Assembly (NCBI GenBank): GCA_008501765.1
Contig: QQUE01000001.1
Span: forward strand, 62,001 to 126,000
Direction of reading: 5' to 3'
DNA: 64,000 nt
Origin: Calditrichota bacterium
GTDB lineage: Bacteria > Zhuqueibacterota > Zhuqueibacteria > Zhuqueibacterales > Geothermadaptataceae
In this document: in pieces, positions 1 through 53,440 of the stretch
How the letters are laid out: each line of letters begins with the position of its first letter
Numbering within the stretch: position 1 is the first letter of the stretch
Notes under the pieces: model-generated
Told to the model about the DNA's origin: nothing
The model's input: only the letters and a program-made list of their open reading frames with translations
Database searches by the model: none
Made by a program: the position numbers and the translations under genes

Positions 1-1
1 T

Positions 2-1402
2 ACCGCCGGAATTTATTCTGAAATATCCAGCGCTTTATTAATAAGCAAAGAAATCTATCCAAAATTTTCTATCGGGGCAAAAGTCGCTTTGGATCACCGG
101 GGCTTTTCAAAGGATGAATTTAATATTGTCGATGAAGACGATCCACTCATAAATTCAGGATTAAGTGTAAACGCCTTAAATCTCGGCCTCGGTGCATATT
201 GGACACCCGGAAAATTTCGCCTGGGCATGGGTGTCGATCATTTAAATACGCCAAACGTAGGGCTCATTTCCACATCGGTTTACCCAAAAGAGGTTTCAGG
301 TGCCATCGGCTATCAGTTGGGCATGTTTACGCCGACATTACTCGTGCATGATAATGGCATCGAAATTAAATATGGATTTTCGGTCGCCTATGAGAAGTCG
401 AACATTGGTCGTCTGCGCCTTGGCTATGAACGCACAATGCCTGTCAAGATGGAAGCCAGTATCAATTTGACCAAAAAAAGCCAGTTGCATTATGGCATGG
501 ATTTTCCCAACGAGGGAACGAGCGGTGCTTCGTATGGAACGCAGGAATTTGTTTATTCACAAATCCTGGCAAAAAAGCCGGTTATCGGCCAACCTGAAAT
601 TTTATTCTCAACCAAAAAATTAGATATAATTTACGAAACCCAAGTTCGCGTTCTGGCACCAGATATTAAAGCTGCAGATCTGCAAAACTCGGGTGAACTC
701 ATGGGGCAATATTTCACCCCGATCGGCCACAAAGACGATTTGCTTTTTGTCAAAGCTGGCGCTCTCAGCCGGTTTGAAACTGATGAAATCAGGCAAAAAC
801 GGCACTTGCGGATCATCCGCAGCATTGGGCAAAATATTTACCAAAATCCGACATCCAAAGTTGTTATTTGGGCCGACAAACGAACTCTCGAAGACGCGAA
901 AGAAATTAAATATCTCCTTGAATCAAAAGCACGCCTCACCGCCGAAAATATTAATATTGCGAAGATAAAAAAACAAACAGCGTTTGATTTGGCAGGTTTT
1001 GAGCCCGGCCGCAAGATGGTAAAACGCAGCAAACCACGGCTGTCAAAAGAGCGCCTGCTGGTTCATTTTCGTGTTTCAAGTCGCACCCGCAAAACCAATG
1101 GCTGGCAATTTGTGATCAAAGATTCTTATGGAAAACCTGTGCGCATTTTTTCCGGCAAGGGTTCGTTGCCCAAATCTCTGGTTTGGGACTGGCAAGACAT
1201 GGACGGGCACACGGCAACGGCCGGCGTTTACACCGGATTTCTCACGGTGAAAGCAGACGGGAATGTCGAGAGGAATGCGCGTTCAGCCGATTTGCCTGTC
1301 TATAATATCAAGCGTACCGTAACGATGAAATTTAAAAGAGAAGCAGAAATAAATTTAACCAAAAAGCAAAATCAGGATTCTGAAATCCTTGATGCTGAGT
1401 AA
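2..1402 (+). CDS. PorP/SprF-like outer-membrane protein with C-terminal FlgD-like domain (5' partial)
   Basis: The reading frame is open from the first complete codon of the window, so the true start, signal peptide and first beta strands are missing; 466 residues are visible. The first ~170 residues, with repeated aromatic-Gly strands such as LGLGAYWTPGKFRLGMGVDH, look like the PorP/SprF family, outer-membrane proteins linked to type IX secretion and gliding in Bacteroidetes. A middle part (~275-330) with IWADKRTLEDAKEIKYLLES weakly recalls an OmpA-like peptidoglycan-binding fold. The last ~110 residues match a FlgD Ig-like module (VWDWQDMDG, AGVYTGFLTV), unusual for classical PorP/SprF. It heads the same-strand cluster running to 10502, and the next gene is an ExbB-type channel, which suggests an envelope complex. 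The family is supported by pattern only; the exact role is inferred. Confidence 0.75.
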   Translation, partial: TAGIYSEISSALLISKEIYPKFSIGAKVALDHRGFSKDEFNIVDEDDPLINSGLSVNALNLGLGAYWTPGKFRLGMGVDHLNTPNVGLISTSVYPKEVSGAIGYQLGMFTPTLLVHDNGIEIKYGFSVAYEKSNIGRLRLGYERTMPVKMEASINLTKKSQLHYGMDFPNEGTSGASYGTQEFVYSQILAKKPVIGQPEILFSTKKLDIIYETQVRVLAPDIKAADLQNSGELMGQYFTPIGHKDDLLFVKAGALSRFETDEIRQKRHLRIIRSIGQNIYQNPTSKVVIWADKRTLEDAKEIKYLLESKARLTAENINIAKIKKQTAFDLAGFEPGRKMVKRSKPRLSKERLLVHFRVSSRTRKTNGWQFVIKDSYGKPVRIFSGKGSLPKSLVWDWQDMDGHTATAGVYTGFLTVKADGNVERNARSADLPVYNIKRTVTMKFKREAEINLTKKQNQDSEILDAE

Positions 1403-1451
1403 ATCGAAATAAAAAGAATTTTGCAATAAGTGTAACCAAAGGAGTAACAAA

Positions 1452-2558
1452 GTGACTGCAATCAGGAAAAAGAACTCGAAGATGAATACTTATAAAATTA
1501 TGGCACTGCTTGTTTTTTGTGCCACTTTACTCTTTAGCGCCGAAGCATTTGCACAAAAAAGCAAAAATAAAAAGTCGAATGCAAAAGCACAGACCGAGCA
1601 AGTTACTCAGACCGCCGAAGAAAATCAAGCGTTGACGGCATGGGACATCCTGGAAATGACGAGCTGGCTATTTTGGCCTTTCGTTTTTGTAACCGGTGCC
1701 GGTGTGACTTTTATCTGTTACCGCGGATTGATCGAATATCAGGAAAAAACACGGTCGCAGTCTGTATTGCAGAAGAAAATTGAAGTGCGCGAATTACGCA
1801 GTTTGATTCGCACGATGCAAAAATCGCAGCCGAACCGGGCCTCCCGCTTGTTGCAGCAAATGGTTTCAACGTTTAATAAAACCAACCGTGCAGAACCAAT
1901 CAGTGCGGATGTAACCCAGTTTGTGAATTCTGAACGCGAGGCCTATGAAACATTTAACCGTGTGCTGGGCTTTTTGTCCGATACCGCTGGCGCATTGGGA
2001 CTCCTCGGAACTGTTTGGGGTATTTTCGAGACATTTCACGGCGGCAAACTGGATGGCCCGACAATTCTCATGGGGATGAGTATTTCGTTGGTAACAACCT
2101 TGGTGGGCTTGCTTATAAGTTTGGCGCTGAACTTTGGCGGCACAACTATATTTGCCATATTTAACCGCTATATGAATACCCTGTCTGTGCGTGCCGAAGA
2201 GCTGCGCCAGGCCTTGTTGTATCTTGAAACGCGCCCGAATAAAAGCCGCGCACAGGAGAATGGCAATGTTTCATCAGCGACAACCCCGGTGAAAATTCCG
2301 GCACCTGAAAGACGATCTTCCCGGCCTGTGGCGAGCAAACGAAGCTACTCGAACTCAAATGGTGCATCTGCTGCCCCTGAAAAACAAGCTCCACCGGTTC
2401 GGCGCGAGGTATCGAGACAGCAGGTAGAAGAAAAATCTGCACAGCCTGCGGTCACCGAAGTAACCGAAGATGAATTGCTGGCATCGCAGGAACAAAATAT
2501 GCCGGATGTCTTTGCACGGCAAAATCCTAAATATGATGATGAAGGAAATGTTTGGTGA
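1452..2558 (+). CDS. ExbB/TolQ/MotA-family proton channel subunit
   Basis: Predicted inner-membrane proton-conducting motor subunit of 368 residues. The GTG start at 1452 is preceded by AGGAG at a good distance; an ATG 10 codons later has a weaker site. A hydrophobic stretch at ~15-35 ends in AEAFAQ, like a cleavable signal, a second helix lies at ~66-90 (SWLFWPFVFVTGAGVTF), and the MotA/TolQ/ExbB domain occupies ~160-260 with GALGLLGTVWGIFETF and a long final helix LMGMSISLVTTLVGLL. The last ~100 residues are Pro/Ser/Ala-rich and probably cytoplasmic. Known ExbB-type proteins work with ExbD-type partners, and two of these lie downstream at 6463 and 6878. The two genes between them encode secreted proteins with T9SS-type tails, so this motor may serve secretion or surface movement rather than iron uptake (inference). 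Confidence 0.85.
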   Translation: MTAIRKKNSKMNTYKIMALLVFCATLLFSAEAFAQKSKNKKSNAKAQTEQVTQTAEENQALTAWDILEMTSWLFWPFVFVTGAGVTFICYRGLIEYQEKTRSQSVLQKKIEVRELRSLIRTMQKSQPNRASRLLQQMVSTFNKTNRAEPISADVTQFVNSEREAYETFNRVLGFLSDTAGALGLLGTVWGIFETFHGGKLDGPTILMGMSISLVTTLVGLLISLALNFGGTTIFAIFNRYMNTLSVRAEELRQALLYLETRPNKSRAQENGNVSSATTPVKIPAPERRSSRPVASKRSYSNSNGASAAPEKQAPPVRREVSRQQVEEKSAQPAVTEVTEDELLASQEQNMPDVFARQNPKYDDEGNVW

Positions 2559-2590
2559 TAAAGCTATTTAAAATAGCAAAGGTAAAAACT

Positions 2591-3433
2591 ATGAAATCGA
2601 ATCTTATAAATATCAGCCAACGTCAAGATTTTAAGCCCGCAAAAAACACGTGGCTTGCGATTTTGTCTGTAATCCTGCTCTGTAGTTTTTCTTCCCCGGT
2701 AAGTGCCTTCCAATTGCCGCCAAAATTATGGATCGCCGGCCCGGATACGGCGCTTGCTCCTGGAGCGGAGTTTACGCTGAATTTTAATATCGGATCCGGT
2801 TTCGATCCCGTGGAAGACCTGTTTGGGATAAGTTTTGAATTGCGCTATTCAACAAGTGAATATTTGGAATTTGTCGATCCCTTTGAAATCAATCCGGGCG
2901 ATTTTCTGCTGCCGGATGTTTATTTATTCATGCGCCACGAAAAAGAAAATAACATCGTTTATTTGGCCATTAGCCGCAAACGGGGCGCCCCCGAGCAATC
3001 CGGTGATGGCACTTTATTTTCATTGCCGTTTCGCATCGCAGAGTCGGCTCCGGAAAACTGGAAAGCCTGTTTTGTTGTATCGGGAATTTTTGCCAATGAC
3101 AGCGATGGAAATCAAGTGAAAGTTGATCAGGGCAGCCAATTTTGTATTCAAGTACGCGAACCCAATCTGGATGTTTTGCCAAATCCCTTTACGCCGAATG
3201 GCGACGGCAAAAACGATGATTTAGTATTTGAACGTGAGGGTGGTATCCCGGACATTTGGGAAATAACCATCATGGATCGGGCTGGCCGCATTATTCAAAA
3301 ACTGGAAAATGGCAAAGATCGCTGGAACGGCCGTGATTTTAACGGGGCGCCGGTTTTACCGGGAGCCTATTTATACATCATTCGCAATGGCAATGAAATT
3401 ATTCGGCGCGGATTGTTGGGGATAATTCGATAA
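2591..3433 (+). CDS. Secreted protein with cohesin-like domain and T9SS type-B sorting domain
   Basis: A 280-residue exported protein. The ATG at 2591 is chosen because AAAGG sits 8 bases upstream; the frame is also open back to TTG/GTG codons at 2552/2555 that overlap the previous stop. Residues ~17-40 form a signal peptide ending SPVSAF. Residues ~50-185 (PDTALAPGAEFTLNFNIG, FGISFELRYS) look like a cohesin/carbohydrate-binding type beta sandwich. The tail contains PNPFTPNGDGKNDDLVF, then ITIMDRAGRII and GAYLYIIRNG, the hallmark of the gliding-motility-associated C-terminal (CHU_C, T9SS type B) domain that in Bacteroidetes directs passage across the outer membrane. It lies between an ExbB-type gene and a second tailed protein, so it is a likely cargo or structural part of the same machine. 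No enzyme motif is visible. Confidence 0.75.
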   Translation: MKSNLINISQRQDFKPAKNTWLAILSVILLCSFSSPVSAFQLPPKLWIAGPDTALAPGAEFTLNFNIGSGFDPVEDLFGISFELRYSTSEYLEFVDPFEINPGDFLLPDVYLFMRHEKENNIVYLAISRKRGAPEQSGDGTLFSLPFRIAESAPENWKACFVVSGIFANDSDGNQVKVDQGSQFCIQVREPNLDVLPNPFTPNGDGKNDDLVFEREGGIPDIWEITIMDRAGRIIQKLENGKDRWNGRDFNGAPVLPGAYLYIIRNGNEIIRRGLLGIIR

Positions 3434-3524
3434 TGAAAAGGATTTTCGTGAAATTGATGCTGTACCTGGATTTGGATGAAAATTTGAATTCGTGTGAATT
3501 AAATACACGAAGGAGATTGATACG

Positions 3525-6365
3525 ATGAAATCGATTATAAATAGAATAATTAAAGTCACTGTGTTTTGCCTGTTAACGGCCATACTATCGACATTTTTTA
3601 GTTTATCAAATTTAGTAGCGCAAAATCCTTTAAATGTCGGCATTAACCGCATTGACGCTACTCAATTTCCTCTTATCGAATCTTACATGACTGTTCGCAA
3701 TACGGATGGCAATACGGTCGGTGGATTGACCGAAGATAATTTTGAAGTTTATGAAGATGGCACACGTGAATTACCAATTACTGTCGTTGAAATTACTGAT
3801 GATGCCGAAGGAGTCAGTGTTGTCCTGGTGATCGATCGCAGTACGAGCATGTTGGGATCGCGTATTTCAGATGCCAAGCTGGCTGCCCAGCATTTCGTTT
3901 CTTTAATGAATGACAAAGATCAGGCTGCCGTTGTCAGTTTTGCCAACACACCCCGCCTTGATATTACTTTTACGAGCGATAAAACTGCACTAAACAATGC
4001 CATTGATCAAATATTTGCCCAGGGTGGCACAGCGGTATATGACGCCCTCATTCGCGCCGTCGACGAAATTGAACCGGTTCAAGGCCGACGTGCGGTTATA
4101 TTGATGACTGACGGCGAAGACAAACACAGTATTCGAACACTGGATCAGTCCATCGCTCGAGCTGTCGAAGTCAATGTACCTGTTTATACGATTGGTCTTG
4201 ATGTCGGGAGCAACGAAAAAGTCGAACTTGGCAGAATCGCCGATGAAACGGGCGGGCAATTTTATGATAGCCCTAACTCAAGTGACCTGGCGACAATCTA
4301 TCAAATGATTTCAGAGTTGTTGCATCATTCTTACATCGTTTCCTACAACACACACAATCCGGCACGGGATGGCACCTTGCGCCATGTTGATATTATATCG
4401 AATCATTTGACCTCAACTGGTTCCGATACAGGAAGTTATCGTGCACCGTTGGATATCGCGCCATTTGTATTAACAACAGATGATGTGCCTGTACCCGGTC
4501 GTGAGTTCAAGCTCGATATTGAAGTCCCAACTGGCGGGAATCCAATTTTTAATATGCATAAACTAGATTTTCGCATTGGTTACGACCAGCAATTTATGAC
4601 TTTAGCAAATGGAGCCGGGAAAATTGGTGCGGGATCAATGTGGGGCAATCCCGATGAGTATACGCTTGACATTATACCCAATCAGGCTCAGGGATATATC
4701 GATATCACGATTGAAAAGAAATCCGGGCAGTTTCCGGTGAGTGGATTTGGTGACATCGGATTTATTACTTTTTTACTCAACACTCAGGTTCCGGATCAAC
4801 AGGTTCTTAATTTTAGATATCTGTCTCTTTCAGCCTACGATGAAAGCGGTACTTTGCTTACAACGGAAACGAACGATTTGACTGTGCAGGTGTTCGGCTA
4901 TTCAATCGTGGCCGTGGCCAGTGATGAAGTACCAAGTCCGGGCAAATCATTTACCGTTCTAATCAAAGTTCCGGACCATAGCCGGGATCTGCCTTATACG
5001 CGGGCTCTCAATTTTTCGCTGCATTATGACCCGACCTATTTGTATTTGTCAGAGCCGGTCAATTCGGCATTTCAGGCGGGCGGAATGTTGGGTAAATCGG
5101 GAGAATTTAACCTCAATCCCAATGTGAACCAGATCGCTGGTACGATTGATTTTGAATTGACAAAAAGTGCCAATTTTACCATGATGAGCGGCAAGGGAAT
5201 CTTTGTCCAGGTTACTTTTGATGTCGCCATGGTTTTACCGGATAGCACGCAACTGTCATTTACACTGCAAAATCTTGCTGGAACCGATGATTCGGGTTGG
5301 GAAATACCTCTGATTCCTGAAGATTTAACATTGACAAGCTACGGGTTAATCGTTTGGCCGGGTGACACCAATAATAATGGCAGCGTTGAACTGGCTGACG
5401 TCAATTTTCTTGGTGTAAATTGGGGCGTGACCGGCCCGGGTAGAAAAGACGAACCTGACGTGATGGCCTGGACAGCGCAGTTCAGCAAGCGCTATTCGGT
5501 TTATAACGCAGCCTTCGCCGATGCGGATGGCAGCAGTCAGGTTAATGAACGCGACCTGATTCCAATTGCGATAAATTGGGGCAAACGCCGTGATTCCCAA
5601 CATCAGGTTCTTGGCAAAACGCGGTTGACAAATATTCAAGGGAGCCCGGTGGGCGATATCGAAGTTTCAGTTCGCGAAGACGGCAATACCACCGGGGCCT
5701 ATCGTATGCTGATTCGATTGATCAGCCCAAATCCGGAAACGGTGCGCGGATTTACATTTAAGGTCAATCACAACACAAATGGCTTGAATTTACTAAGTGC
5801 TGTAGCTGGAAATTTGTGGGAAGAAGACCCGCTGGTGTTCTCATATTTTACCGCTAATCCGGAAGAGATTTCAGCCTGCATTATGTTGAAACCCGGTGCC
5901 GCAGATAATATTGAAGATGGTGTTCTGGCCGAAGTTTTGCTGATTGCGAGTCAAATGCCGGAACCGGAAGTCTTCGAGTTTAACCGTGTTGGATTAATTT
6001 CGGCTGATGGCGCTGTCACAGAAAAAGCGTGGATCAATACCAGCGCTGTGAATGAGAAGAGTGATTTACCCACAGAATTTGCGGTTAGCCCGGCGTATCC
6101 AAATCCGTTTAATCCGGAAACGCAAGTTCGGTTTTCGATGCCACTGGCTGGGGAAGTGACTTTTTCAATTTTTAATACCAGTGGACAATTGGTGCGCATT
6201 CACAATAAGTCAGTATCTCAGGCCGGCAGTTATATCTGGCGCTGGGATGGCAAAGATAATACTGGAAACAGCGTTGCCAGTGGTGCTTATTTCTGGCAGA
6301 TTATGGCGCAAATGCGCAACGGTGATCGAACTGTAAAAAACCAAAAAGTAACGTTGATGAAATAG
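3525..6365 (+). CDS. von Willebrand factor A protein with cohesin-like, dockerin-like and T9SS type-A sorting domains
   Basis: A 946-residue secreted protein; AAGGAGA lies 8 bases before the ATG and residues 1-33 form a signal peptide ending LVAQ. A VWA domain (~60-290) carries a complete MIDAS: D104-x-S106-x-S108 (IDRSTS), T169 (GGTAVYD) and D196 (MTDGED), so metal-dependent ligand binding is expected. Two cohesin-like beta-sandwich modules follow at ~325-450 and ~455-605 (both start VPxPGxxFxxxIxVP), then a dockerin-like pair of calcium loops at ~612 (GDTNNNGSVELADV) and ~664 (ADADGSSQVNERDL), a third sandwich at ~700-840, and a FlgD-like type-A sorting tail from ~855 (YPNPFNPETQVRF to the end). 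Having cohesin-like and dockerin-like parts in one chain allows self-assembly in principle. A surface adhesin or scaffold delivered by the neighbouring machine is the simplest reading. Confidence 0.85.
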   Translation: MKSIINRIIKVTVFCLLTAILSTFFSLSNLVAQNPLNVGINRIDATQFPLIESYMTVRNTDGNTVGGLTEDNFEVYEDGTRELPITVVEITDDAEGVSVVLVIDRSTSMLGSRISDAKLAAQHFVSLMNDKDQAAVVSFANTPRLDITFTSDKTALNNAIDQIFAQGGTAVYDALIRAVDEIEPVQGRRAVILMTDGEDKHSIRTLDQSIARAVEVNVPVYTIGLDVGSNEKVELGRIADETGGQFYDSPNSSDLATIYQMISELLHHSYIVSYNTHNPARDGTLRHVDIISNHLTSTGSDTGSYRAPLDIAPFVLTTDDVPVPGREFKLDIEVPTGGNPIFNMHKLDFRIGYDQQFMTLANGAGKIGAGSMWGNPDEYTLDIIPNQAQGYIDITIEKKSGQFPVSGFGDIGFITFLLNTQVPDQQVLNFRYLSLSAYDESGTLLTTETNDLTVQVFGYSIVAVASDEVPSPGKSFTVLIKVPDHSRDLPYTRALNFSLHYDPTYLYLSEPVNSAFQAGGMLGKSGEFNLNPNVNQIAGTIDFELTKSANFTMMSGKGIFVQVTFDVAMVLPDSTQLSFTLQNLAGTDDSGWEIPLIPEDLTLTSYGLIVWPGDTNNNGSVELADVNFLGVNWGVTGPGRKDEPDVMAWTAQFSKRYSVYNAAFADADGSSQVNERDLIPIAINWGKRRDSQHQVLGKTRLTNIQGSPVGDIEVSVREDGNTTGAYRMLIRLISPNPETVRGFTFKVNHNTNGLNLLSAVAGNLWEEDPLVFSYFTANPEEISACIMLKPGAADNIEDGVLAEVLLIASQMPEPEVFEFNRVGLISADGAVTEKAWINTSAVNEKSDLPTEFAVSPAYPNPFNPETQVRFSMPLAGEVTFSIFNTSGQLVRIHNKSVSQAGSYIWRWDGKDNTGNSVASGAYFWQIMAQMRNGDRTVKNQKVTLMK

Positions 6366-6462
6366 CCAATAGGGCATGCGTCTATTGGCAGATTTTAAAT
6401 AAAGTATTTTTGAGAACGATCCATTTCTCATTTAAATCAGGCAATAAAAGGAGTAAAGAAAT

Positions 6463-6867
6463 ATGGCTCAGGGAAGTTTAATGGTACGGATGATCGATGT
6501 GGTATTTATCCTTCTCTTCGGTTTTATCGCTGTTTCACAGATCAGCAAAGCTGAAGCCATCGAACCTTCAAAAAGTACCGAAGCGGAGGCAAAAGCTCCG
6601 GAAGGAGCCTACATCGCCATTATCAATGTGCGAAGCAATGGCGTTTACACGGCAGACGGTGGCGACACAATTTTAAGAAATACCAATGAAGTGCGTCGTT
6701 ATCTTTCTAATGAAATAAAAAAAGCAAAAGCCGATAAAAAACAACTGGGCGTGCGTATTCGCTCGTCCTGGGATGCTCCGGCAAGAAAGACGCTCGCCGT
6801 AGCCAAGGTCTGCCGCGGACTCGACATCCCCAAGGGATTGGACGTCGTTAAAATACGGCAATTTTAG
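6463..6867 (+). CDS. ExbD/TolR-like motor protein (first copy)
   Basis: A 134-residue protein with a strong AAAGGAG site upstream. A short cytoplasmic N-terminus leads into a single helix, VRMIDVVFILLFGFIAVSQI, in which the aspartate matches the conserved proton-relay Asp of ExbD/TolR proteins. An Ala/Glu/Lys-rich linker follows, then a ~85-residue periplasmic alpha/beta domain with ITVRSNG-like strands. The gene is followed 10 bases later by a second ExbD-like gene. Together with the ExbB-type channel at 1452 it should form a proton-motive-force-driven stator. Sequence similarity to standard ExbD is low outside the helix, so the exact subfamily is uncertain. Confidence 0.75.
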   Translation: MAQGSLMVRMIDVVFILLFGFIAVSQISKAEAIEPSKSTEAEAKAPEGAYIAIINVRSNGVYTADGGDTILRNTNEVRRYLSNEIKKAKADKKQLGVRIRSSWDAPARKTLAVAKVCRGLDIPKGLDVVKIRQF

Positions 6868-6877
6868 GAGCGAAGAT

Positions 6878-7273
6878 ATGGGAAACAGAACCATGATGAT
6901 GCGGCTCATCGATGTCGCATTGATAATATTACTCGGTTTTATTGCAATCAGCCGACTGAAAACCGAATATATCGAATTGCCTGCGGCCGGCAAAGCGCAG
7001 CCGCAAACAGATAAAGTTGCAACCGCTGTTCTGCATCTCTACAGCAATCACTTTGATTATGTGATCGATGGCAGAAAAAAACGCTCGAAATCGATTGCGG
7101 CGCTCGAGGGTGTGCTGCTGAGTTCGAAATCGAGTTTGTTGAACCGGAGAACGAAACTGGTTGTGAATATTGAACCTCATAAATCAAGTATTATGCAAAA
7201 CCTCGTCGATGTTTTGGATATCTGCCAACGCAATCAAATAGAAAAGAATTTTGATTATGACCGGATTAACTGA
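6878..7273 (+). CDS. ExbD/TolR-like motor protein (second copy)
   Basis: A 131-residue protein that starts 10 bases after the previous stop, with TAGGAG overlapping that stop. The transmembrane segment MMRLIDVALIILLGFIAISRL repeats the pattern of the preceding gene and again keeps the helix aspartate. The periplasmic part (~45-131) carries a similar order of strands and helices but little direct identity to the first copy, so this is an old duplication or a heteromeric pair. Paired ExbD-type genes with one ExbB also occur in known Ton- and Tol-type systems. Its last 17 bases overlap the next gene, so translational coupling is likely. Confidence 0.7.
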   Translation: MGNRTMMMRLIDVALIILLGFIAISRLKTEYIELPAAGKAQPQTDKVATAVLHLYSNHFDYVIDGRKKRSKSIAALEGVLLSSKSSLLNRRTKLVVNIEPHKSSIMQNLVDVLDICQRNQIEKNFDYDRIN

Positions 7274-8336
7274 GTATATACGGAATCGGGATAACCTGCT
7301 GCCTTTATCCATTTATATCGCAACTGGAATTTTATTGATTCTTTTTATTTTGCTGCATTTGTTTGGCTACGAGAAAACCAAAGAAATTACGCAACTCCAT
7401 AAAAAAATGGAAGTTCGTGAGCTGATGAAATTGAGCTTTAAGCCAAAAGCAAAGACCGCGAACCGCAAACGATCAAATATCGCCAAAAAAGCGCCGGACA
7501 AACCAAAAGCCAAAGTAAGTCCGCGGCAAAAAGTGGAAAGCAAGCCATTGGTGAAAGCGCCCGATGTACAGGAATTGATGAAAGGTTTGAACACAAAAAG
7601 CCTGATCAAGAAAAAGTCGGCTGTGCGGCGCACGGTGCAAACGGCCAATGTTTTGCCAAATATTGGTGTTTCATCCTCGAAACGGCGAACGAGTAAAAAT
7701 GTGCAAAAAGCAGATTTTAATGTTTCCTTCAGCTCAACGCCTTCGCAACGGCCAAGCGGACGCAGGGCAGCTGCCGGATCATCGCAAGGCCACGCCGTGG
7801 CTACAGGTTCAGTGAGCCGTGGTTCCACAACAGGAACTGACACCGGTGTTTCCGTTGCCGGCCGGGCTTCAACACGCACAACACGTGTCGCTGGCAGCGG
7901 GGCAGCGGGATCGACAATTTCACTGCCTTCCGCAGGTGATGGCGAAAGTGAAGCTTCCATCGATCTGCATGCGTTGATTGCATGGATGAAAAATCATCCG
8001 GGAAGCATCCCCAAGTTGGTGGCTTATGAAATGGGACACCGCGGCGGGGATTTATCCTCAGCAGTTAATTTTCAAATGGGTGGAAAAAAATATACTTTTT
8101 ATATCTCATGCAATGAAAAAGAGCTACTTTTGCGTGTCTGTCTCGTGGAAAGAAATACGTTTATCTTATTGAAAGATCAGGGCTTAACAGAAGAAAGTAA
8201 TTATTTAACCACGGGTGATGTTATCCGGGATGGCAGCAAAATTCAATCGCTGATCAGTGCACGGAAAGCACCGGGAAATAAAGCAAATGAATTTTATGGT
8301 CTCTTTTGGGCCTGGTGGCAGAATATCAGCAAATAG
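7257..8336 (+). CDS. TonB-like periplasm-spanning protein
   Basis: A 359-residue protein. The ATG at 7257 lies inside the end of the second ExbD-like gene; a TTG two codons earlier is the alternative. One N-terminal helix (~13-36, LLPLSIYIATGILLILFILLHLF) is followed by ~190 residues that are very rich in Lys, Pro, Arg, Ser, Thr and Gly and probably extend across the periplasm. The final ~120 residues (from SIDLHALIAWMKNHPGS) form a compact domain ending FWAWWQNISK. The layout (anchor, extended basic linker, small C-terminal domain) and the position next to ExbB/ExbD-type genes match TonB/TolA proteins, but the usual TonB C-terminal motif is not visible. The call therefore rests on architecture and context. 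Confidence 0.6.
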   Translation: MTGLTEYIRNRDNLLPLSIYIATGILLILFILLHLFGYEKTKEITQLHKKMEVRELMKLSFKPKAKTANRKRSNIAKKAPDKPKAKVSPRQKVESKPLVKAPDVQELMKGLNTKSLIKKKSAVRRTVQTANVLPNIGVSSSKRRTSKNVQKADFNVSFSSTPSQRPSGRRAAAGSSQGHAVATGSVSRGSTTGTDTGVSVAGRASTRTTRVAGSGAAGSTISLPSAGDGESEASIDLHALIAWMKNHPGSIPKLVAYEMGHRGGDLSSAVNFQMGGKKYTFYISCNEKELLLRVCLVERNTFILLKDQGLTEESNYLTTGDVIRDGSKIQSLISARKAPGNKANEFYGLFWAWWQNISK

Positions 8337-8377
8337 ATTTGGGAATTGGGTATCGAAAATAAGTTAAGGAGTTTGAG

Positions 8378-9871
8378 ATGGTAAAGGAATACCGGATCCT
8401 GCGAACAGTTGTATGGCTTTGTGCTTTTGCAATTTTGGCGGGATGTGCTTCATCCGGCGGCGGAAAAATGGCAAAGAGAAATAAACGGCGGCTGCCGCCC
8501 GGCCTCGATAGCACAACCGTCTGGCAATCGAGCCAGGTTGCGGATGCAAATTTTGTCTCCGCCAGACGCACAAGCGAAGCGGAAAAACATCAGGCGATCG
8601 CCAAACGAAATACAGCCGAAGTCGATGAATTTTGGGCTTTACTGGAAGGCAAGGTGAAAACCCAAAATCTCACAGCCACAGAAAAAAAACAATTCGACCG
8701 GGAATTTGCCAATGGGGCAAAAGCCCTCGAACGATGGAAAAAAATAACCAAAGACGGCCAGCAAAATCAGATGGGTGTGAAGGCGCAAAATGCATGCATC
8801 ACTGCACGAAAACATCTGGAACAGGCTGTGCAATTAAATCCGTTTGATAAAAATGCCCGCATGTTGTTAGCAGTAACTTACTACAATTTGCAGCATATTT
8901 TCGGTCAGCAGAATAATTATAAAAAAGCGGTTGATATACTCGAACGTTTGGTGCGGCTCGAAAAAGGAGAACCGGAACTATTCCGATCTCTCGCGGAAAA
9001 TTATATGGCGTTACAGAAATGGGACGCAGCAGCAACGCAATTTAAAAAAGCTGAATTTGTCTTGAAAAAAACATCTTTCTCAGCGCCACCGGATACCGCC
9101 AAACTGTTTTATTATGCTTACATGCAAGGTGATATGACCGCCCGAATGTACCAGGCCAGCGCGGCCGTCACATTATTCCGTAAAGCGAAAATGTATGCCC
9201 GCAGCGCCAATGAAAAAGACGATGTGGCGAATTATATCAAGTGGGTGAACTGGGATGAAGGCAATATCCGCAATTCCGAAGCTTGGGACAAAATTCTCGA
9301 TCTCGAACAAAAGAAACAATATGCCCAGGTCGATTTGGAAGCCACGCGCTTGATTCCTTTGCTGCGGACGAAGAAAGCAAAATTATCTGTCCATCACAAA
9401 CTGGCTGTGGCTGAGTTTGAATTCTTAAATAAAAAGCCGAAAGCAATCGAGCGCATGCGCCGGGTTTACGAATCTTTGAACAGGCAGGAAATAAAAACGC
9501 CTTCGGAAGAGGTGACTGCCTATTTGAATACTTATGGTGCGATGCTGTTCCGCTTTGGCGTCGAAGCGCGTGAGCGCCAGGACAATAAACTCGCTCTGGC
9601 CTATTTTACCAAAGCCACCGAATTTGAATGGGATCAGGTTTCCAAACCCAACTTTGAACTTGTAACACTGGTTTGGAATACACCAAATCAGGCGATAATT
9701 TATGGCGAAAATGCGATTCGGCTGGCAGCAGGGCTAACTGAATACGAAATGTGTCAGTTGATTTCGCTGATGGTTAAAGCCCATAAAAGTGCCGGTTTAT
9801 ACGACGAAGCGCGCACGTATTTTAATCAATGGAAGAATTGTCAGAAAGGACAAGCACACGATGCTGAATAG
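8378..9871 (+). CDS. TPR-repeat lipoprotein of the motor cluster
   Basis: A 497-residue predicted lipoprotein with AAGGAG before the ATG and a lipobox at the end of the signal peptide (FAILAGC, then ASSGGG). Helical TPR-type repeats are visible at ~140-260 (ARKHLEQAVQLNPFDKNARMLLAVTYYNL; YKKAVDILERLV; WDAAATQFKKAEFVL) and again near ~390-470. In Bacteroidetes T9SS the lipoprotein PorW/SprE is also a TPR protein that links the ring and the translocon; this gene could play a comparable part, but that is inference from context and not from a specific match. It overlaps the next gene by 11 bases. Confidence 0.7.
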   Translation: MVKEYRILRTVVWLCAFAILAGCASSGGGKMAKRNKRRLPPGLDSTTVWQSSQVADANFVSARRTSEAEKHQAIAKRNTAEVDEFWALLEGKVKTQNLTATEKKQFDREFANGAKALERWKKITKDGQQNQMGVKAQNACITARKHLEQAVQLNPFDKNARMLLAVTYYNLQHIFGQQNNYKKAVDILERLVRLEKGEPELFRSLAENYMALQKWDAAATQFKKAEFVLKKTSFSAPPDTAKLFYYAYMQGDMTARMYQASAAVTLFRKAKMYARSANEKDDVANYIKWVNWDEGNIRNSEAWDKILDLEQKKQYAQVDLEATRLIPLLRTKKAKLSVHHKLAVAEFEFLNKKPKAIERMRRVYESLNRQEIKTPSEEVTAYLNTYGAMLFRFGVEARERQDNKLALAYFTKATEFEWDQVSKPNFELVTLVWNTPNQAIIYGENAIRLAAGLTEYEMCQLISLMVKAHKSAGLYDEARTYFNQWKNCQKGQAHDAE

Positions 9872-10502
9872 AAAAATTTTGAGATATATTTTATCCGGTG
9901 CAATTGTCTTTTTTGTATTGCTGCCGGCGCTCACAGCGCAAAATGATCAGGTTGTTGTCGATCAATCCATCATGCAGTCGACAACCGTAAGTAACCGTCA
10001 ATTAATTAGCCTGTTCTCGGAAGATTTTATGATACCTGAGGAAGATATTTCCCGGCTCGTCATTTACGATCTCTCCGGCGATGGTTTTGGCGAAGGGGAT
10101 ATTGCGCGAACATTTCCCGGCGGCCGGTTTTATATGATTACGCCGAGCGCCCGTACGCAAAATATTATGAATAACTGGAGTTTCGGCGGCAATATTAAAT
10201 TTACCGCTAACTCCAACGATTCCCCGGAGCTTTTCGAAAACGCGCCCGATTCCGTGCGTGCCATGGGCGGAATTTTTGCTGCTCTTCTGCGCGGGATGCG
10301 CCGAAATTACAGTGGAGAACCGATCAAAATGCATCTCGAACAAGTAGATGGTGTCACCTCAATCGAAATGTGGGGATATTCACCCGAATTGATGCATTAT
10401 GTGCCACCACCAATCAATAAAGTGCCCGAAGAAATTCCGGTGATGAAACTAATTTATCTCGAAAAGACAGTTGTGGATTCTGTTTATTCCACGCCGCGCT
10501 AA
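9861..10502 (+). CDS. Exported protein of unknown function, last gene of the motor cluster
   Basis: A 213-residue protein; the ATG at 9861 lies within the end of the TPR lipoprotein gene with AGAAAGGA upstream, so the two are translationally coupled. A longer frame back to 9789 is just the overlap. A signal peptide is evident (ILSGAIVFFVLLPALTAQ). The mature part has an early segment SLFSEDFMIPEEDISRLVIYDLSGDG, a Gly-rich strand region, and a Pro-rich end. No family is recognised. Its position immediately before the terminator at 10530 shows it belongs to the cluster, probably as a periplasmic or outer-membrane part. Confidence 0.65.
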   Translation: MLNRKILRYILSGAIVFFVLLPALTAQNDQVVVDQSIMQSTTVSNRQLISLFSEDFMIPEEDISRLVIYDLSGDGFGEGDIARTFPGGRFYMITPSARTQNIMNNWSFGGNIKFTANSNDSPELFENAPDSVRAMGGIFAALLRGMRRNYSGEPIKMHLEQVDGVTSIEMWGYSPELMHYVPPPINKVPEEIPVMKLIYLEKTVVDSVYSTPR

Positions 10503-10529
10503 ATTTTTTCAGCTTGGCGTTACACTTGC

Positions 10530-10562
10530 AGCCTCAGCAATTTTTGTTGGGGCTTTTTTTTT
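10530..10562 (+). terminator. Rho-independent terminator closing the motor cluster
   Basis: The stem GCCTCAGCAA pairs with TTGTTGGGGC across a three-base TTT loop (10 pairs including two G-T pairs, extended by an A-T pair), followed by nine T residues. It starts 28 bases after the stop of the last cluster gene and supports a single transcription unit ending here. Confidence 0.9.
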
Positions 10563-10778
10563 ATTCGTCTTAGAATTTGACGCCATGATTCAACGTGCCT
10601 GCAAATCTTCTACAGCATTAGCCTGCTCAGCCAGCCTATAATTACAAGTATTTACAAATAATATGATGATATTTCTCATTAGATTTTGTAGATTTACAGC
10701 GCTGTGTTTTTCCAGTTGCCCTTTCTTGTCTCGAATAAATATATTGGAAAATCAACAATCTAAACAGGAACCATTCCC

Positions 10779-14488: not shown

Positions 14489-14638
14489 TTAACCTGATCT
14501 ATTTATAAACTGATAAAAATGTGCCTGGCACTTCTACAAGTTATGAAAGCCCTTAAAAGCTACTTTGTTTAGTTAACTTTATAAAAATCAACGAAGTGCC
14601 AGGCACATCCACTGCACTTTATGAATAATTCAGGTTAA
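14489..14638. mobile_element. MITE-like element with TTAACCTGA termini and GTGCCTGGCAC hairpin
   Basis: The left end TTAACCTGATCTATTTATAAA and the right end TTTATGAATAATTCAGGTTAA are near-perfect inverted repeats. Inside, GTGCCTGGCACTTC (14521-14534) pairs with GAAGTGCCAGGCAC (14593-14606). The right-hand part recurs at 14811-14928 through a local tandem duplication, a weaker full copy lies at 54967-55083, and related ends are found at 53441-53644 and 28654-28670. Confidence 0.7.
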
Positions 14639-15100
14639 GTGAATTTCGATAAAAAATGTTTTCCTTGGTGCTCTCTGAGTCTCAATGGCTTCATTGTTGT
14701 GGGGTTTTATTCAAATCCGTTTGGATTTCGGGACTGTCAGCGCCAGACATCATCACACATTTCTTGAATGCCTTTTTCAGCTTGCCAGCCCAGTTCGGAT
14801 TTGGCTTTTTGTGCCTGGCACTTCTACAAGTTATAAAAGCTCTTAAAAGCTACTTTGTTTAGTTAAATTTATAAAAATCAACGAAGTGCCAGGCACATCC
14901 ACTGCACTTTATGAATAATTCAGGTTAAGTGAATTTCGATAAAAAATGTTTTCCTTGGTGCTCTCTGAGTCTCAATGGCTTCATTGTTGTGGGGTTTTAT
15001 GCAAATCCGTTTGGATTCAGGGACTGCCAGCGCCAGACATCATCACACATTTCTTGAATGCCTTTCTCAGCTTGCCAGTCCAGTTCAGATTTGGCTTTTA
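14521..15100. repeat. 290-bp tandem duplication including the 3' end of galE
   Basis: Bases 14521-14810 and 14811-15100 are two head-to-tail copies of one 290-bp unit that starts with GTGCCTGGCACTTC, with only scattered differences. The second copy contains the genuine end of galE; the first contains a detached copy of the same tail. The left joint coincides with the hairpin arm of the MITE-like element, which suggests replication slippage or repeat-driven recombination. Confidence 0.85.
14707..14809 (-). pseudogene. Detached galE 3'-end fragment
   Basis: Read on the minus strand, this segment encodes the last ~33 residues of GalE (KAKSELGWQAEKGIQEM, then CDDVWRWQSRNPNGFE and a stop), almost the same as the true gene's end. 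It has no start of its own and is a by-product of the tandem duplication. The few changes from the intact copy (Asp to Gly, Leu to Arg, Ala to Glu) fit decay without selection. Confidence 0.8.
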
Positions 15101-16332: not shown

Positions 16333-16428
16333 TTTTCACGTTTTCACGTTTTCACGTTTTCACGTTTTCACGTTTTCACGTTTTCACGTTTTCACGTTTT
16401 CACGTTTTCACGTTTTCACGTTTTCACG
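16333..16428. repeat. Perfect octamer tandem array (12 copies of TTTTCACG)
   Basis: Twelve uninterrupted copies of TTTTCACG end 22 bases before the ATG of the next gene. The unit length is not a multiple of three, so the array cannot be a stable part of a coding sequence. It lies in the 5' leader, where changes in copy number could alter the spacing between promoter and start. Confidence 0.9.
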
Positions 16429-16450
16429 TTTTTTAATCCCGAGGTATCGA

Positions 16451-36668: not shown

Positions 36669-36704
36669 TTTTTATGGTTGAAAGTTAAATGTTAAAGATT
36701 GATG

Positions 36705-36780
36705 TTCAAACGTTCAAACGTTCAAACGTTCAAACGTTCAAACGTTCAAACGTTCTAACGTTCTAACGTTCTAACGTTCT
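36705..36780. repeat. Octamer tandem array (6x TTCAAACG, 3x TTCTAACG)
   Basis: Nine consecutive octamers and a partial tenth fill the gap between the glycosyltransferase stop codon (36781-36783) and the ABC-F gene. Six are TTCAAACG and three are TTCTAACG, so a point mutation has itself been amplified. The unit length equals that of the array at 16333. Confidence 0.9.
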
Positions 36781-46252: not shown

Positions 46253-48613
46253 TTATTTCCTTCTATTTTCTAACACAAAACGATTTAATCTCCGTTTAAA
46301 TTCATTTTTTTCTTCTTCGGAGCTGAGAATATGCAAATATCCGACACCACCTTCGAGCTCTAAAAAAGCGAGCAGATAATTGTAAACCGAATTTGAATGG
46401 GCTAATTTGGCCCGTATTGAGGCTTGTTGTGCATCCAGCAATGCGATTATGGACGTGGCTCCCTGACGATAGGCATTCTGGACGAGTTCGAGGTTTTTCC
46501 CGGCATTTGTTGCTGACTTCTCGGAAAATTCAATGTTTGTCGATGCTATTAATAAATTAATGGCTTTTGATTTTATGTTTAATGCAATTGAATTGTCAAT
46601 ATCCTGTATCTGTGTTTTCAATTGTTTTCGTTGAATTTGGTTGGTCTGAACATCGATGCGTTTGCGATTCCTATCAAACAGGGGGAAGGAAAGATTGAGC
46701 CCAATATTCCAGCGTGTATCAGTGTAGGATTGGCCTGGCAAAGGTTCGGAAGCTTTACCGCCACGCCAAAAGGTTTCATCGCTCTGTGCCTGCAAAGCAA
46801 GTGCCGGTATAAAGTAAGCGCGTTTGTTCATCGTCAGTTGACGCTCAACGGCTTTTAAATTGGCGATCAAGCGATTTTTGGAAGGATAAACGCGCAATGC
46901 CTCCTCGATTAGGAAATTGGTGATTAAGCGCAGATCGTTGGGATTTTTAATAAATTTACCAAAATTGCTCGACGAAAAATCGAGAAAAACTTCATCGCCA
47001 ATATCGGTATCTTTTATATCAAAAGGCTCGGGCAACGTATTGTTGAGCCCATGATTTAACACAAATTTTGCCAGCATGAAATTTGACTGCGCCTCGATAA
47101 GCGATTGACTGCTGTTGGCGACTTCACTTTCCCACCGATAGACATCGGCGTTACTGGCGGCTCCAACGTTGACCCTTAATTGGGCCAGTTCAAGGTTTTT
47201 TCGTGATAGCGTCAGATTTTCACGCTGAATGGCAACATTTGTTTTCGCCTGCAGAATTGAAAAATAAGCTGAATAGCTATCCAGCGTGACATCGATAATT
47301 TCTTGTTCTGTGGCATATTCTTGGGCCTTGGCCAGCCATTTTTGTATCCTGATATTGGCGATGGCCGGCTCTGAATAAATCAGTTGCTGTACTGCAACAC
47401 TGCCCAACAAAGTTTGTTCAGCCTGCCCAAGAGCCGGATTAACTCTGTTCTCGTCAATCAGGCTTGCTGATGCTGAGATATCGGCTGCAGGTAAAAAATT
47501 GGAGTAAGCAGATCGGATATCCTGCTGACTGAGAGCTATATCGTCATTGCTTATTTTTATTTGCAGATTTTCTTGCATGGATTTCTGAATTATTTCCTGT
47601 ACTGAAAAAGCGGGCACAATTTCCAATGAATCGCTTTTGATGATAGTGGCGGTGAATAGTACCTTAAATGGCGGTGTAAAATTGATTTTTCGCGCCGTCG
47701 ATTGATTATATTGCAACTCCTGTTTTTGATTTATCGCAACTTTCATCTGTGAAAGTTTTTCGCCATTCATAGCGCCATCAGCCATCACTGCTACTTTTCG
47801 AACGACTTGCTCTAAACTGTTTTCGGAAGAAATACTTGCCAGAATTCCCAGATTGGTGTGAAAGCCACTCAAGGAAAATGATGGCAGTTTTTTAGCCACT
47901 AAATAGTCGGCAATCTGTTTTATTTTCCCGTGCGGTAATTCGTAACTGATGGCCAGATAAACCGCATCTGTTGTCTCAGGCATTTGTGCCAATGAGTGAG
48001 AAATATCTTCACCAATCAACACGGGAGTTATCGCTATCCCCAGGTTCGTTGTTAACCGTTCGAGCTTGCGTTCTCTTTTGCTGATGTCAAATGCACCTGC
48101 CATCTTTTCGTCTACTAAAATAGCCAGATTCTTAAATTCATGAATTTCATAAAATGACCTGAGCTCGGTATTGAGATTTTTTGAATTCAAAACATATGAG
48201 AAGTTATGAACACCCGAAGTGCCATTCTCAGTGAATGGCATGGTTTGTACATCGGTATCATAAATGCCAAGGGCAATTGTTGGTTTGCTATATTTATCAA
48301 CCGAAACAACACCTTTTGAGCTCACTCCACCGAGAATAATTATGAGGTCGCATCGTTGCACGAGCGAAATATAATGCTGTTTTGCCAATGCGGGGTCCCA
48401 TTTTGATGATAAAAGATTTTTCGATGCAAGATTTACCTGCCAGGTCGAACCGAGTGTTTTTTGAATTTCTGAGATGATAACAGGTTTAATTTTTACTAGC
48501 CGCTCGTCATCTAATGAAAAATCAGCAATTATACCAAGGGATAACTCTTGTGCAAATAAATCTTGCCCGATTGGGCTGAGGCATAGGAGGAATGCAATAA
48601 AACATCGTTTCAT
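46253..48613 (-). CDS. TolC-family outer-membrane efflux protein fused to an N-terminal periplasmic binding-protein-like domain
   Basis: A 786-residue protein; the ATG at 48613 has GGTGG upstream and residues 1-23 form a signal peptide ending LFAQ. Residues ~25-330 look like a two-lobed periplasmic binding protein of the ABC TrpX/type-1 kind: LGIIADFSLDDERLVKIK, CDLIIILGGVSSKGVVSV, FKNLAILVDEK, TDAVYLAISYELPHG and KLPSFSLSGFHTNLG are arranged as alternating strands and helices. Residues ~355-780 form the TolC-type outer-membrane factor, with VQEIIQKSMQENLQIKISNDDI and the helical repeats NLTLSRKNLELAQLRVNVGAAS and NLELVQNAYRQGATSIIALLDAQ. TolC proteins are normally ~450 residues, so the extra domain is the oddity. 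It is the first gene of the efflux operon. Confidence 0.85.
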   Translation of the reverse strand: MKRCFIAFLLCLSPIGQDLFAQELSLGIIADFSLDDERLVKIKPVIISEIQKTLGSTWQVNLASKNLLSSKWDPALAKQHYISLVQRCDLIIILGGVSSKGVVSVDKYSKPTIALGIYDTDVQTMPFTENGTSGVHNFSYVLNSKNLNTELRSFYEIHEFKNLAILVDEKMAGAFDISKRERKLERLTTNLGIAITPVLIGEDISHSLAQMPETTDAVYLAISYELPHGKIKQIADYLVAKKLPSFSLSGFHTNLGILASISSENSLEQVVRKVAVMADGAMNGEKLSQMKVAINQKQELQYNQSTARKINFTPPFKVLFTATIIKSDSLEIVPAFSVQEIIQKSMQENLQIKISNDDIALSQQDIRSAYSNFLPAADISASASLIDENRVNPALGQAEQTLLGSVAVQQLIYSEPAIANIRIQKWLAKAQEYATEQEIIDVTLDSYSAYFSILQAKTNVAIQRENLTLSRKNLELAQLRVNVGAASNADVYRWESEVANSSQSLIEAQSNFMLAKFVLNHGLNNTLPEPFDIKDTDIGDEVFLDFSSSNFGKFIKNPNDLRLITNFLIEEALRVYPSKNRLIANLKAVERQLTMNKRAYFIPALALQAQSDETFWRGGKASEPLPGQSYTDTRWNIGLNLSFPLFDRNRKRIDVQTNQIQRKQLKTQIQDIDNSIALNIKSKAINLLIASTNIEFSEKSATNAGKNLELVQNAYRQGATSIIALLDAQQASIRAKLAHSNSVYNYLLAFLELEGGVGYLHILSSEEEKNEFKRRLNRFVLENRRK

Positions 48614-48891
48614 ATGAACCACCCGGTTATTTTCTTTTATGAAAATTGTAGTAAAATTTTGCGATTATTGGTAACCCCTGCATGGTATCAAATTGACAAA
48701 TTTATACTGTAAAATAATTGGATTTTCAAGTAAAAATTATATGTATGTACGATGCCTAACATATAGAAACGGCAAGAAAAAGGCAAGAGTTTTCAAACAG
48801 CAAAGAACGACTTACAGGCTATGAAATGGTAAATGAGAATCGATCGATTCTGGCGGCTGTTGTATTTAAAATCTCCCTGTCCCTGTGATAC

Positions 48892-52700: not shown

Positions 52701-53237
52701 AAATCCGCCTTTTGAGCCCAGGGCAGAAAACCACGGTGTCCAGATGTGGGAGGGAACAAGATAAGCAAAATCGTCCGCTTCGAGCGTGATTTCCAATAAA
52801 TCACGCGAATCGAGGCCGAGAATTGGTCGGCCATCGGAGTGAATGTTGCCGATGGCATCGAGTTTGGCTTGAATTTTTTCAGCGGCTTCAAAATGGGGGG
52901 CAAACAAAATATTATGAATTTTTCGGACTTTATCCAGCCGCTTGTAAATATTGGAAATCTCAACACTGAGCATAAAACGAACGGGAGCTGCGCAGGCTGC
53001 AGGGACTTCTGATTGTGTCGACTGCAGAAATTCATCCTTGAGTTTGAAAAGCCCGTCTTCTGCCGGTTCCAGTTTTTCCTGCAACTCTTTCAGCCAGCCG
53101 GGGTGCACAAAATCGCCGGTGCCGACGATATGGATACCTTTTAGTTGAGCCCATTTGGCCATGTGCTCAAGGTTGAGATTTTTGCTCGTGGCACGAGAAT
53201 AATAGGAATGGACATGCAGGTCAGCAATTATTTTCAT
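49752..53237 (-). CDS. Endonuclease-Q-like (PHP/TIGR00375) nuclease fused to a UvrD/PcrA-type helicase
   Basis: A 1161-residue DNA-repair-type fusion. The start is the ATG at 53237, where family similarity begins; a TTG 12 codons earlier is rejected. Residues 1-~425 match endonuclease Q / TIGR00375: the PHP metal motif D6-L-H8-V-H10, RATSKNLNLEHMAKWAQLKGI, D42 and H45, D223-x-H225, and a zinc site C279, H284, C295, C298. Archaeal EndoQ cuts DNA 5' of deaminated bases. After a low-complexity linker (~430-505) comes a superfamily-1 helicase: Walker A GPGTGKT at 542-548, DEYQD at 715-719, GDPNQAIYGFRG near 742, LTLHAAKGLEFPVV and RRLFYVGMTRAKNQLFL towards the end. Coupling lesion incision to unwinding in one chain is the natural inference. 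Confidence 0.88.
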   Translation of the reverse strand: MKIIADLHVHSYYSRATSKNLNLEHMAKWAQLKGIHIVGTGDFVHPGWLKELQEKLEPAEDGLFKLKDEFLQSTQSEVPAACAAPVRFMLSVEISNIYKRLDKVRKIHNILFAPHFEAAEKIQAKLDAIGNIHSDGRPILGLDSRDLLEITLEADDFAYLVPSHIWTPWFSALGSKGGFDRMSDCFGDLTSHIFAAETGLSSDPVMNWRLSQLDPYILISNSDAHSPQKLGREATVYETDLSYYSIYDALKNPANKGLVSTLEFFPEEGKYHFDGHRKCEVRLHPKETIKNKGLCPQCGKPVVVGVMSRVEELADREEGIKAPRARPYFSLIPLPEIIGEAVQKGPNTKTVQAIFDRMLAKIGNEMYILQDAPLEDIASAGGPVVSEGIRRMRKGEVNIAAGYDGEFGVVKIFTADERKDIARQTSIFTGQAEAKPDSKKKQIRDEIPAKNTDTKKELQPENSEKSEETGTVRNYLYQFHQESYDQNKHNLNHIRESEGASRPLHTPEVTDLQLGARLPEDLNAAQWRAVTHMGGHLLIIAGPGTGKTHTLTHRIAHVTQCFAAEEDILALTFTNRAADEMKERLRHRMPEEVDSMTIGTFHSFCLHFLRQYRTETDLPENFTVATAEEIDSICKHSWHDLSAAERQNRRDEISLWKAQGDTQNTLEIVQQYDELLRAHGLIDFDDLLFETLQLLRSNQNLLEITRAAYRYIFVDEYQDINPVQHALLQELVQNGVHLTAIGDPNQAIYGFRGARVEYFKSFEQDFANARILELSENYRSAAKILSASCQVMEKEKNLDVPPLTAKIYTQGRLTIHETATEKAEAEYVVHQIEKMVGGTSMFSHDSGRADSDAEAERSFGEIAVLYRLHAQKAALEEAFERSGIPYQTAGEKPLLACSGVMEILTMLRLANNRAVSFDSASNLLRFVVKGVGAQAIKSFGEQIAPNRNLIKKEDIESFAASSQSGEKLNGFIAELTGLHTKLEKDGLISALQHILVLKSWQEKFTGNQELTAYWERLLRIARNRNAFGDFVDYLMLQRNEDAIEGQSERVSLLTLHAAKGLEFPVVFIIGCEEKLLPLDLENMHGDAAEERRLFYVGMTRAKNQLFLIRAKKRMIFGKSLELAASPYIADIEEQLKAYEKAGKIPKRRKKRGHDENQLSLF

Positions 53238-53440
53238 ACGAAATCGGTTTGTGAAAGAGGTTAACCGAATCAAAAAAACTGTCGGGATAAAAGTGATTTT
53301 AACTGCTTGCTTTTATTTACATTATTCTGTGAAAATAGACTACAAATTGTGGAGCTAAATTGCAAGCAGAAAGTCGTTTAACGGGAGGGATTGCGATAAT
53401 TTTTTATCTGAAATTTGAAATAATTGGGAAGAAACTAGAA

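Follow-up and report, generated by a model that had tools for sequence, protein, structure and literature searches.

Why should a proton-driven motor of the ExbB/ExbD type be encoded in one operon with parts of the type IX secretion system (T9SS)? T9SS secretion and gliding have been described as traits of the Bacteroidota, powered by GldLM (e.g., PMC9389320, PMC7463736). We analyzed 64,000 nucleotides of contig QQUE01000001.1 from a Calditrichota bacterium (positions 62,001 to 126,000; G000:C18:62001-126000), referred to as the window, from a home genome (G000) of 5.9 Mb and 98.9% completeness. At its start, a PorP/SprF-like gene, an ExbB gene and two ExbD genes lie in one cluster, here called the module, and an earlier note on this DNA had proposed that ExbB/ExbD/TonB-type parts take the place of GldL-GldM. 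Our comparative sequence analysis, in which most genomes were metagenome-assembled genomes (MAGs), indicates that the motor belongs with an extended PorP carrier and the cargo of that carrier rather than with T9SS secretion in general. We put the probability at roughly 0.55 that the module is an envelope machine, driven by protons, that serves a single PorP-type carrier together with its surface protein.

Window positions 1-10564 form a single plus-strand run from PorP to Sec213 with a terminator at the end, according to open reading frame (ORF) and profile annotation:

1..1402, + strand: PorP/SprF-like outer-membrane carrier, 3' part (PF11751, E 2.9e-8; TIGR03519, E 1.8e-13, under its cut-off; alignment A5).
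1482..2558, + strand: ExbB/TolQ-like proton channel subunit, 358 amino acids (PF01618, MotA_ExbB, 46.5 bits; DTAGALGLLGTVWG core).
2591..3433, + strand: exported protein bearing a type-B (CHU_C) sorting domain of the T9SS, plus a weak cohesin-like domain (TIGR04131, 39.2 bits; PF13585, E 1.3e-12).
3525..6365, + strand: exported protein with VWA and cohesin domains, a dockerin-like repeat and a type-A T9SS tail (PF00092, PF00963, PF13860; TIGR04183, 25.8 bits).
6463..6867, + strand: ExbD-like subunit 1, 134 amino acids (PF02472, 32.5 bits; RMIDVVFILLFGF, membrane Asp kept).
6878..7273, + strand: ExbD-like subunit 2, 131 amino acids (PF02472, 38.9 bits; RLIDVALIILLGF, membrane Asp kept).
7257..8336, + strand: TonB-shaped arm (AlphaFold2 (AF2) model with secondary structure; alignment A2).
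8378..9871, + strand: TPR lipoprotein, 497 amino acids (TPR_19, E 1.3e-7; lipobox LAGC).
9861..10502, + strand: Sec213, exported protein of 213 amino acids, the final module gene (alignment A1; AF2 pLDDT 77.5).
10530..10564, + strand: terminator-like hairpin of 11 pairs plus a T tract (hairpin 10530-10554, then eight T).

The complete PorP ORF starts at about C18:61537, before the window, and encodes up to 621 amino acids. The home PorP scored 34 bits against PF11751 (PorP_SprF; cut-off 22.3) and 50.7 bits against TIGR03519, below the cut-off of 90.55. All parts read by the earlier note were confirmed, the TonB-like linker in shape only: the single plus-strand unit with its strong terminator by the hairpin and eight T, the PorP/SprF-like barrel by PF11751, and the proton channel with two ExbD-like subunits that both keep the membrane Asp by the MotA_ExbB and PF02472 matches and the alignment. 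The same was true for the TPR lipoprotein, by its lipobox, and for two proteins with T9SS sorting tails, whose scores exceed the cut-offs of 35 bits (TIGR04131, type-B) and 23 bits (TIGR04183, type-A). Sec213, a conserved exported protein, had been overlooked. The next gene, past the terminator, is ceramidase-like and was left out of the module.

The 60 genomes of the class were searched with the ExbB sequence and the neighborhoods annotated, and named genomes were searched with the TPR family. The named relatives, whose loci all came from MAGs, belonged for the most part to candidate division KSB1 and to Calditrichota/Caldithrix, and two were named Bacteroidetes. After removal of duplicates, the full order PorP-ExbB-ExbD1-ExbD2-arm-TPR-Sec213 was present in 25 loci besides the window, with protein identity between module loci often of 20-35%. 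Five further loci kept the six-gene core, with a PorP that was either elsewhere or unseen. The other loci mostly appear truncated, several of them at contig ends. A second copy in the home genome (C14:744-756k) has PorP as its last gene. The recurrence of the same order in 25 other loci places the cluster far beyond chance, and the conserved order that the earlier note had named as one sign of replacement is present.

The distribution of the motor followed the carrier and not the secretion pore. SprA, which the earlier note had suggested looking for, was found in 60/60 class genomes (in the home genome at G000:C8:599590-603990, TIGR04189, 737.8 bits), compared to 28/60 for the arm. A long PorP of at least 540 amino acids was present in 26 of the 28 arm genomes and in 2 of the 32 others (Fisher p=2e-12; the genomes are related by descent, so p-values overstate independence). 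Moreover, 40 of 46 PorPs of 540-699 amino acids lay at most 15 kb from an arm gene, while PorPs of other lengths never adjoined one (0/33; 22 shorter, 11 longer). Type-B sorting domains that score over the curated cut-off were found in 17/28 arm genomes and 0/32 others. The home genome held exactly two PorP_SprF and two type-B matches, one of each per module locus. These counts of arm, PorP and type-B domains tie the motor to the extended PorP and its cargo rather than to T9SS secretion generally. The parts, their order and this tight tie can be read from the sequences themselves.

Does the module nevertheless replace GldLM? Since all 60 genomes have SprA but just 28 have the arm, the 32 that lack the arm do not depend on the module for secretion, and in these KSB1-type genomes something else must power SprA. 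The proposed replacement is therefore unsupported for general secretion. GldM was not detected in the 60 class genomes by TIGR03517 (0/60) or by a divergent GldM profile built from two Bacteroidetes MAGs (0/60), a result that leaves room for a more divergent GldM. In these two MAGs, TIGR03517 finds a GldM-like gene, below its cut-off, and both also hold the full module; a GldK-GldL-GldM-like operon is readable in one of them. The coexistence of GldM and the module makes the module an add-on there. The GldL profile TIGR03513 gave 0/13 and also missed the GldL-like gene between the GldK-like gene and GldM in locus L146, so it was uninformative. As to the absence of GldL/GldM, a second sign of replacement named by the earlier note, GldM went undetected in the KSB1-type genomes, where a divergent GldLM may still be present, a GldM-like gene is present in the two MAGs, and the GldL search was without a working control. 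Like GldLM/PorLM, the module has a motor in the inner membrane that is driven by protons and whose genes are linked to those of T9SS parts. Unlike GldLM, its subunits belong to the MotA/ExbB and ExbD families, with no GldL/GldM NCBIfam match among them; it has a flexible arm linker instead of the rigid shaft of GldM, and it follows PorP, not SprA.

A separate and unrelated TPR-TPR-ExbB-ExbD-ExbD-FHA/TonB cluster in the home genome (L050, G000:C8:116000-132000) resembles the Agl-Glt core. Its FHA/TonB protein was matched in 60/60 class genomes, some over the C-terminal part only, which is the same spread as SprA. By this correlation, L050 is a candidate for a general T9SS energizer or a core envelope machine.

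The module could still serve secretion in a narrower way, by energizing the freeing of the PorP-cargo complex from SprA for the type-B cargo only. In Bacteroidota (johnsoniae, PMC10994853), the step that needs energy is the one in which SprA lets go of the carrier-substrate complex. GldM went undetected in the 60 class genomes that all have SprA, and a motor is encoded beside almost every extended PorP. Against this role, PorPs of other lengths in the same genomes are without a motor, two MAGs hold GldM as well as the module, and the 32 module-less genomes need a general SprA motor anyway. We consider release a possible but rather unlikely purpose.

What distinguishes the carrier that the motor accompanies? 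In module PorPs, the barrel is followed by about 280 additional C-terminal amino acids that finish in an Ig/FlgD-like domain (alignment A5), and the C-terminal end of this extension resembles the C-terminal Ig domain of PorU (E 0.0084, PDB profile search). An OmpA-like domain suspected by eye in the extension was rejected, as profile searches gave chance matches only. The Cys-X-Cys C-terminal tail of the SprF type, which belongs to the gliding sub-type (PMC12635249), was absent in 22/22 module PorPs. PorP_SprF proteins occur in distinct length classes with differing partners: proteins of 700-950 amino acids, never beside an arm, and a form of about 340 amino acids, likewise motorless, were noted among G032, G033, G038, G022, G048, G014, G009, G007, G013, and G046.

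In Bacteroidota, PorP/SprF proteins are the cognate shuttles of type-B cargo (PMC12618676, PMC9143113). As in sprB-sprF of Flavobacterium and PorE-PorP-PG1035 of Porphyromonas, the PorP/SprF-family carrier here adjoins a cargo with a type-B C-terminal domain, and export through SprA is expected. Unlike those shuttles, the module PorP is about twice as long (560-680 amino acids), lacks the twin-Cys tail of SprF and has its own ExbB/ExbD motor and arm. The type-B protein encoded two genes downstream of PorP (2591..3433; TIGR04131, 39.2 bits), which is small with 280 amino acids from the ATG, is the probable cargo of the PorP carrier, and the VWA protein (3525..6365) is probably a second cargo. 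The latter carries a dockerin-like calcium-repeat motif, DTNNNGSVELAD, also seen in relatives, without a Pfam dockerin match. The cohesin domain and dockerin-like motif of this protein, together with the weak cohesin-like domain in its neighbor, hint at a surface cohesin-dockerin assembly. Across loci, the cargo genes were variable and sited between ExbB and ExbD1 or upstream of PorP, and their products were adhesin-like, with FG-GAP, Ig-like, CARDB, and VWA domains and a CHU_C/type-B tail.

Such adhesin-like cargos would suit surface movement, that is, gliding or swarming in which an Agl-Glt-style motor pulls the PorP-adhesin complex along the cell or around it, with an outcome like that of SprF/SprB. 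SprF carries the gliding adhesin SprB and connects it to a motor-driven moving track (PMC12635249), and the Agl-Glt/Nfs motors of Myxococcus shift surface cargo with one ExbB-like AglR, two ExbD-like proteins and the TonB-like GltG (PMC3858216, PMC3169522). In layout, the module resembles the latter, with one ExbB/AglR-like protein, two ExbD-like proteins, a transducer of TonB shape, TPR proteins and an outer-membrane part, which in the module would likewise move surface cargo; unlike in Agl-Glt/Nfs, PorP and T9SS cargo replace the Glt outer-membrane parts, and both an FHA domain and a TonB-type end domain are missing from the arm. The coexistence with GldM in two MAGs also argues for a job after secretion. 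On the other hand, a track protein (GldJ/GldK) is absent from the cluster, the extended PorPs lack the conserved Cys-X-Cys of SprF, and the home type-B cargo, with its 280 residues, is unlike the giant gliding adhesins. Movement, like release, is possible but rather unlikely.

The membrane Asp of both ExbDs was kept in all module homologues aligned, as was the ExbB core of GALGLLGTVWG type in the aligned members. In the ExbB tree, the module ExbBs formed one group with a support of 100/100, separate from six other home-genome ExbBs; the branches are long and deeper placement is unsure. The lipobox Cys of the TPR protein was also invariant (alignment A3).

The arm consists of an N-terminal transmembrane helix, a disordered linker of about 180 amino acids and a C-terminal alpha/beta domain in the AF2 model, and the end domain carries an invariant FY..F..WW motif in the alignment. 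A disordered linker would be better suited to pulling than to torque transmission. Searches of Pfam, NCBIfam and PDB sequences gave zero matches for the arm; the TonB C-terminal domain was not found by Pfam or NCBIfam, and the AF2 end domain had no confident PDB match. Furthermore, the SHLS motif (SxxxH, S then H four residues later) was not found properly placed in the transmembrane helix of 21 arms, two of which showed chance matches, in L060 at the helix end and in L066 before the helix. The TonB-like linker of the earlier note is therefore TonB-like in shape, without a family match or the SxxxH motif of TonB/TolA. Of the structure searches it had suggested, those run for the arm and Sec213 gave a reliable match to neither. 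For the arm, the best Foldseek E was 0.14 and the best VIA Z 5.0 (rmsd 3.8, 93 aligned); for Sec213, which had zero Pfam and NCBIfam family matches, these values were 0.31 and 4.1 (rmsd 4.0, 63 aligned). The best VIA matches of both were unrelated proteins.

The vWA force transducers (Mol Biol Evol 2025, PMC12204202) are similar in having TPR proteins, one TolQ-like and two different TolR-like proteins, and an arm composed of a transmembrane helix, a linker and a non-TonB end. They differ in that the end of the module arm is not vWA and lacks SHLS, and a link to PorP/T9SS is undescribed in PMC12204202. The Agl-Glt/Nfs machines have likewise not been reported together with PorP. Pfam gave no VWA match in the arm, and the VWA protein of the operon is a separate exported T9SS cargo.

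ExbB and ExbD fall within the Ton/Tol superfamily, and an ordinary Ton nutrient-uptake system could lie beside T9SS genes by coincidence. Annotation of the operon, to which the receptor search was confined, showed that none of its genes encodes a TonB-dependent receptor, so the pairing that the earlier note had set against its own proposal was not seen there. In addition, the arm has neither the TonB C-terminal domain nor SxxxH in the membrane helix core in 21 homologues, the linkage to PorP is tight, and ExbB/ExbD genes occur at further loci of the home genome, at one of them (C8:1252k) together with a short TonB-like protein. We regard a Ton system as highly improbable.

The TPR lipoprotein recalls PorE of P. 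gingivalis, a lipoprotein of the same TPR kind that binds peptidoglycan by one end and also binds PorP (PMC9143113); the module likewise pairs PorP with a TPR lipoprotein. PorP and the surface protein might then be tied to the cell wall or division site in a Tol-Pal/PorE-like manner and not transported. An OmpA-like/Pal domain was not found in the module proteins by Pfam or in the PorP extension by PDB profile searches, TolB is absent from the cluster, and a static tether needs no motor. Tethering is accordingly an improbable role, well behind release and movement.

We infer the physical contacts, the direction of force and the purpose of the machine as follows. An ExbB pentamer around two different ExbDs would draw on the proton gradient and act on the arm, whose long flexible linker would span the periplasm. 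The C-terminal domain of the arm may grip an outer-membrane assembly of the PorP C-terminal extension, the TPR lipoprotein and Sec213. PorP would take the type-B cargo from the SprA pore and hold it on the surface, as PorP/SprF do in Bacteroidota. By pulling, the motor may free the carrier-cargo complex from SprA, or later move or tension the displayed protein. The coexistence with GldM favors a role after secretion; with no detectable GldM in KSB1, release is still a candidate purpose.

Several points weigh against a dedicated carrier machine. Bacteroidota PorP/SprF carriers function without a dedicated motor. PorPs of about 340 and at least 700 amino acids have no motor gene beside them, and of the 51 places with an arm, 11 had no PorP match nearby, many of these lying on short contigs. 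Moreover, a recognized fold is absent for the arm C-terminal domain and Sec213, so their contact with PorP is a guess. Direct force on one PorP-cargo complex by its own motor nevertheless appears to be the simplest reading of the gene content. Of the earlier suggestion of an alternative powered secretion or movement machine, what remains is an ExbB/ExbD-type machine of the envelope that is powered and linked to the T9SS, in a narrower role that follows the extended PorP and type-B cargo. More tentatively, and with somewhat greater doubt than belief, each extended PorP may have its own proton-driven ExbB/ExbD1/ExbD2 motor and new-type arm, a machine that would extract or move a single surface protein without depending on GldLM and would represent an undescribed class of T9SS energization. 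A literature search for PorP/SprF with ExbB/ExbD found no description of the cluster. A Poribacteria paper was discarded as a precedent, as SPRF there is a freezing method and its ExbD locus a microcompartment region.

Other features were observed elsewhere in the window. A perfect 8-bp tandem array, TTTTCACG x12.5, at 16333-16432 lies at the 5' end of a thiamine-diphosphate-enzyme-like ORF and may be a phase-variable tract or reflect a mis-called start. Another 8-bp array, GTTCAAAC x9.5, at 36704-36779 lies between ABC-F ATPase and glycosyltransferase genes. At 14520-15099, a 290-bp unit occurs twice (96% matches); the repeat overlaps a galE-like gene at its 3' end and includes TGTGCCTGGCACTT palindromes. 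The UvrD-type helicase at 49752-53273 has a long N-terminal region that is PHP/endonuclease-Q-like by eye, and the TolC-type outer-membrane efflux protein at 46253-48622, which adjoins RND and adaptor genes, has an N-terminal region that is periplasmic-binding-protein-like by eye.

Envelope machines driven by the proton motive force are already known; what is new here is the client, a PorP carrier. In uncultured KSB1-type bacteria, the outer-membrane carrier for large secreted surface proteins is nearly always encoded with its own motor, which suggests an undescribed route of inner-membrane energy to surface proteins. In SprA-bearing KSB1-type bacteria, GldM was undetected, yet carrier-specific ExbB/ExbD motors are present. 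If this is true, a second motor family can energize T9SS carriers, and a transducer with a new end domain would join the ExbBD/TolQR/AglRQS/GldLM group. The module would then also offer a compact seven-gene system for studying energy transfer from the inner membrane to individual outer-membrane carriers.

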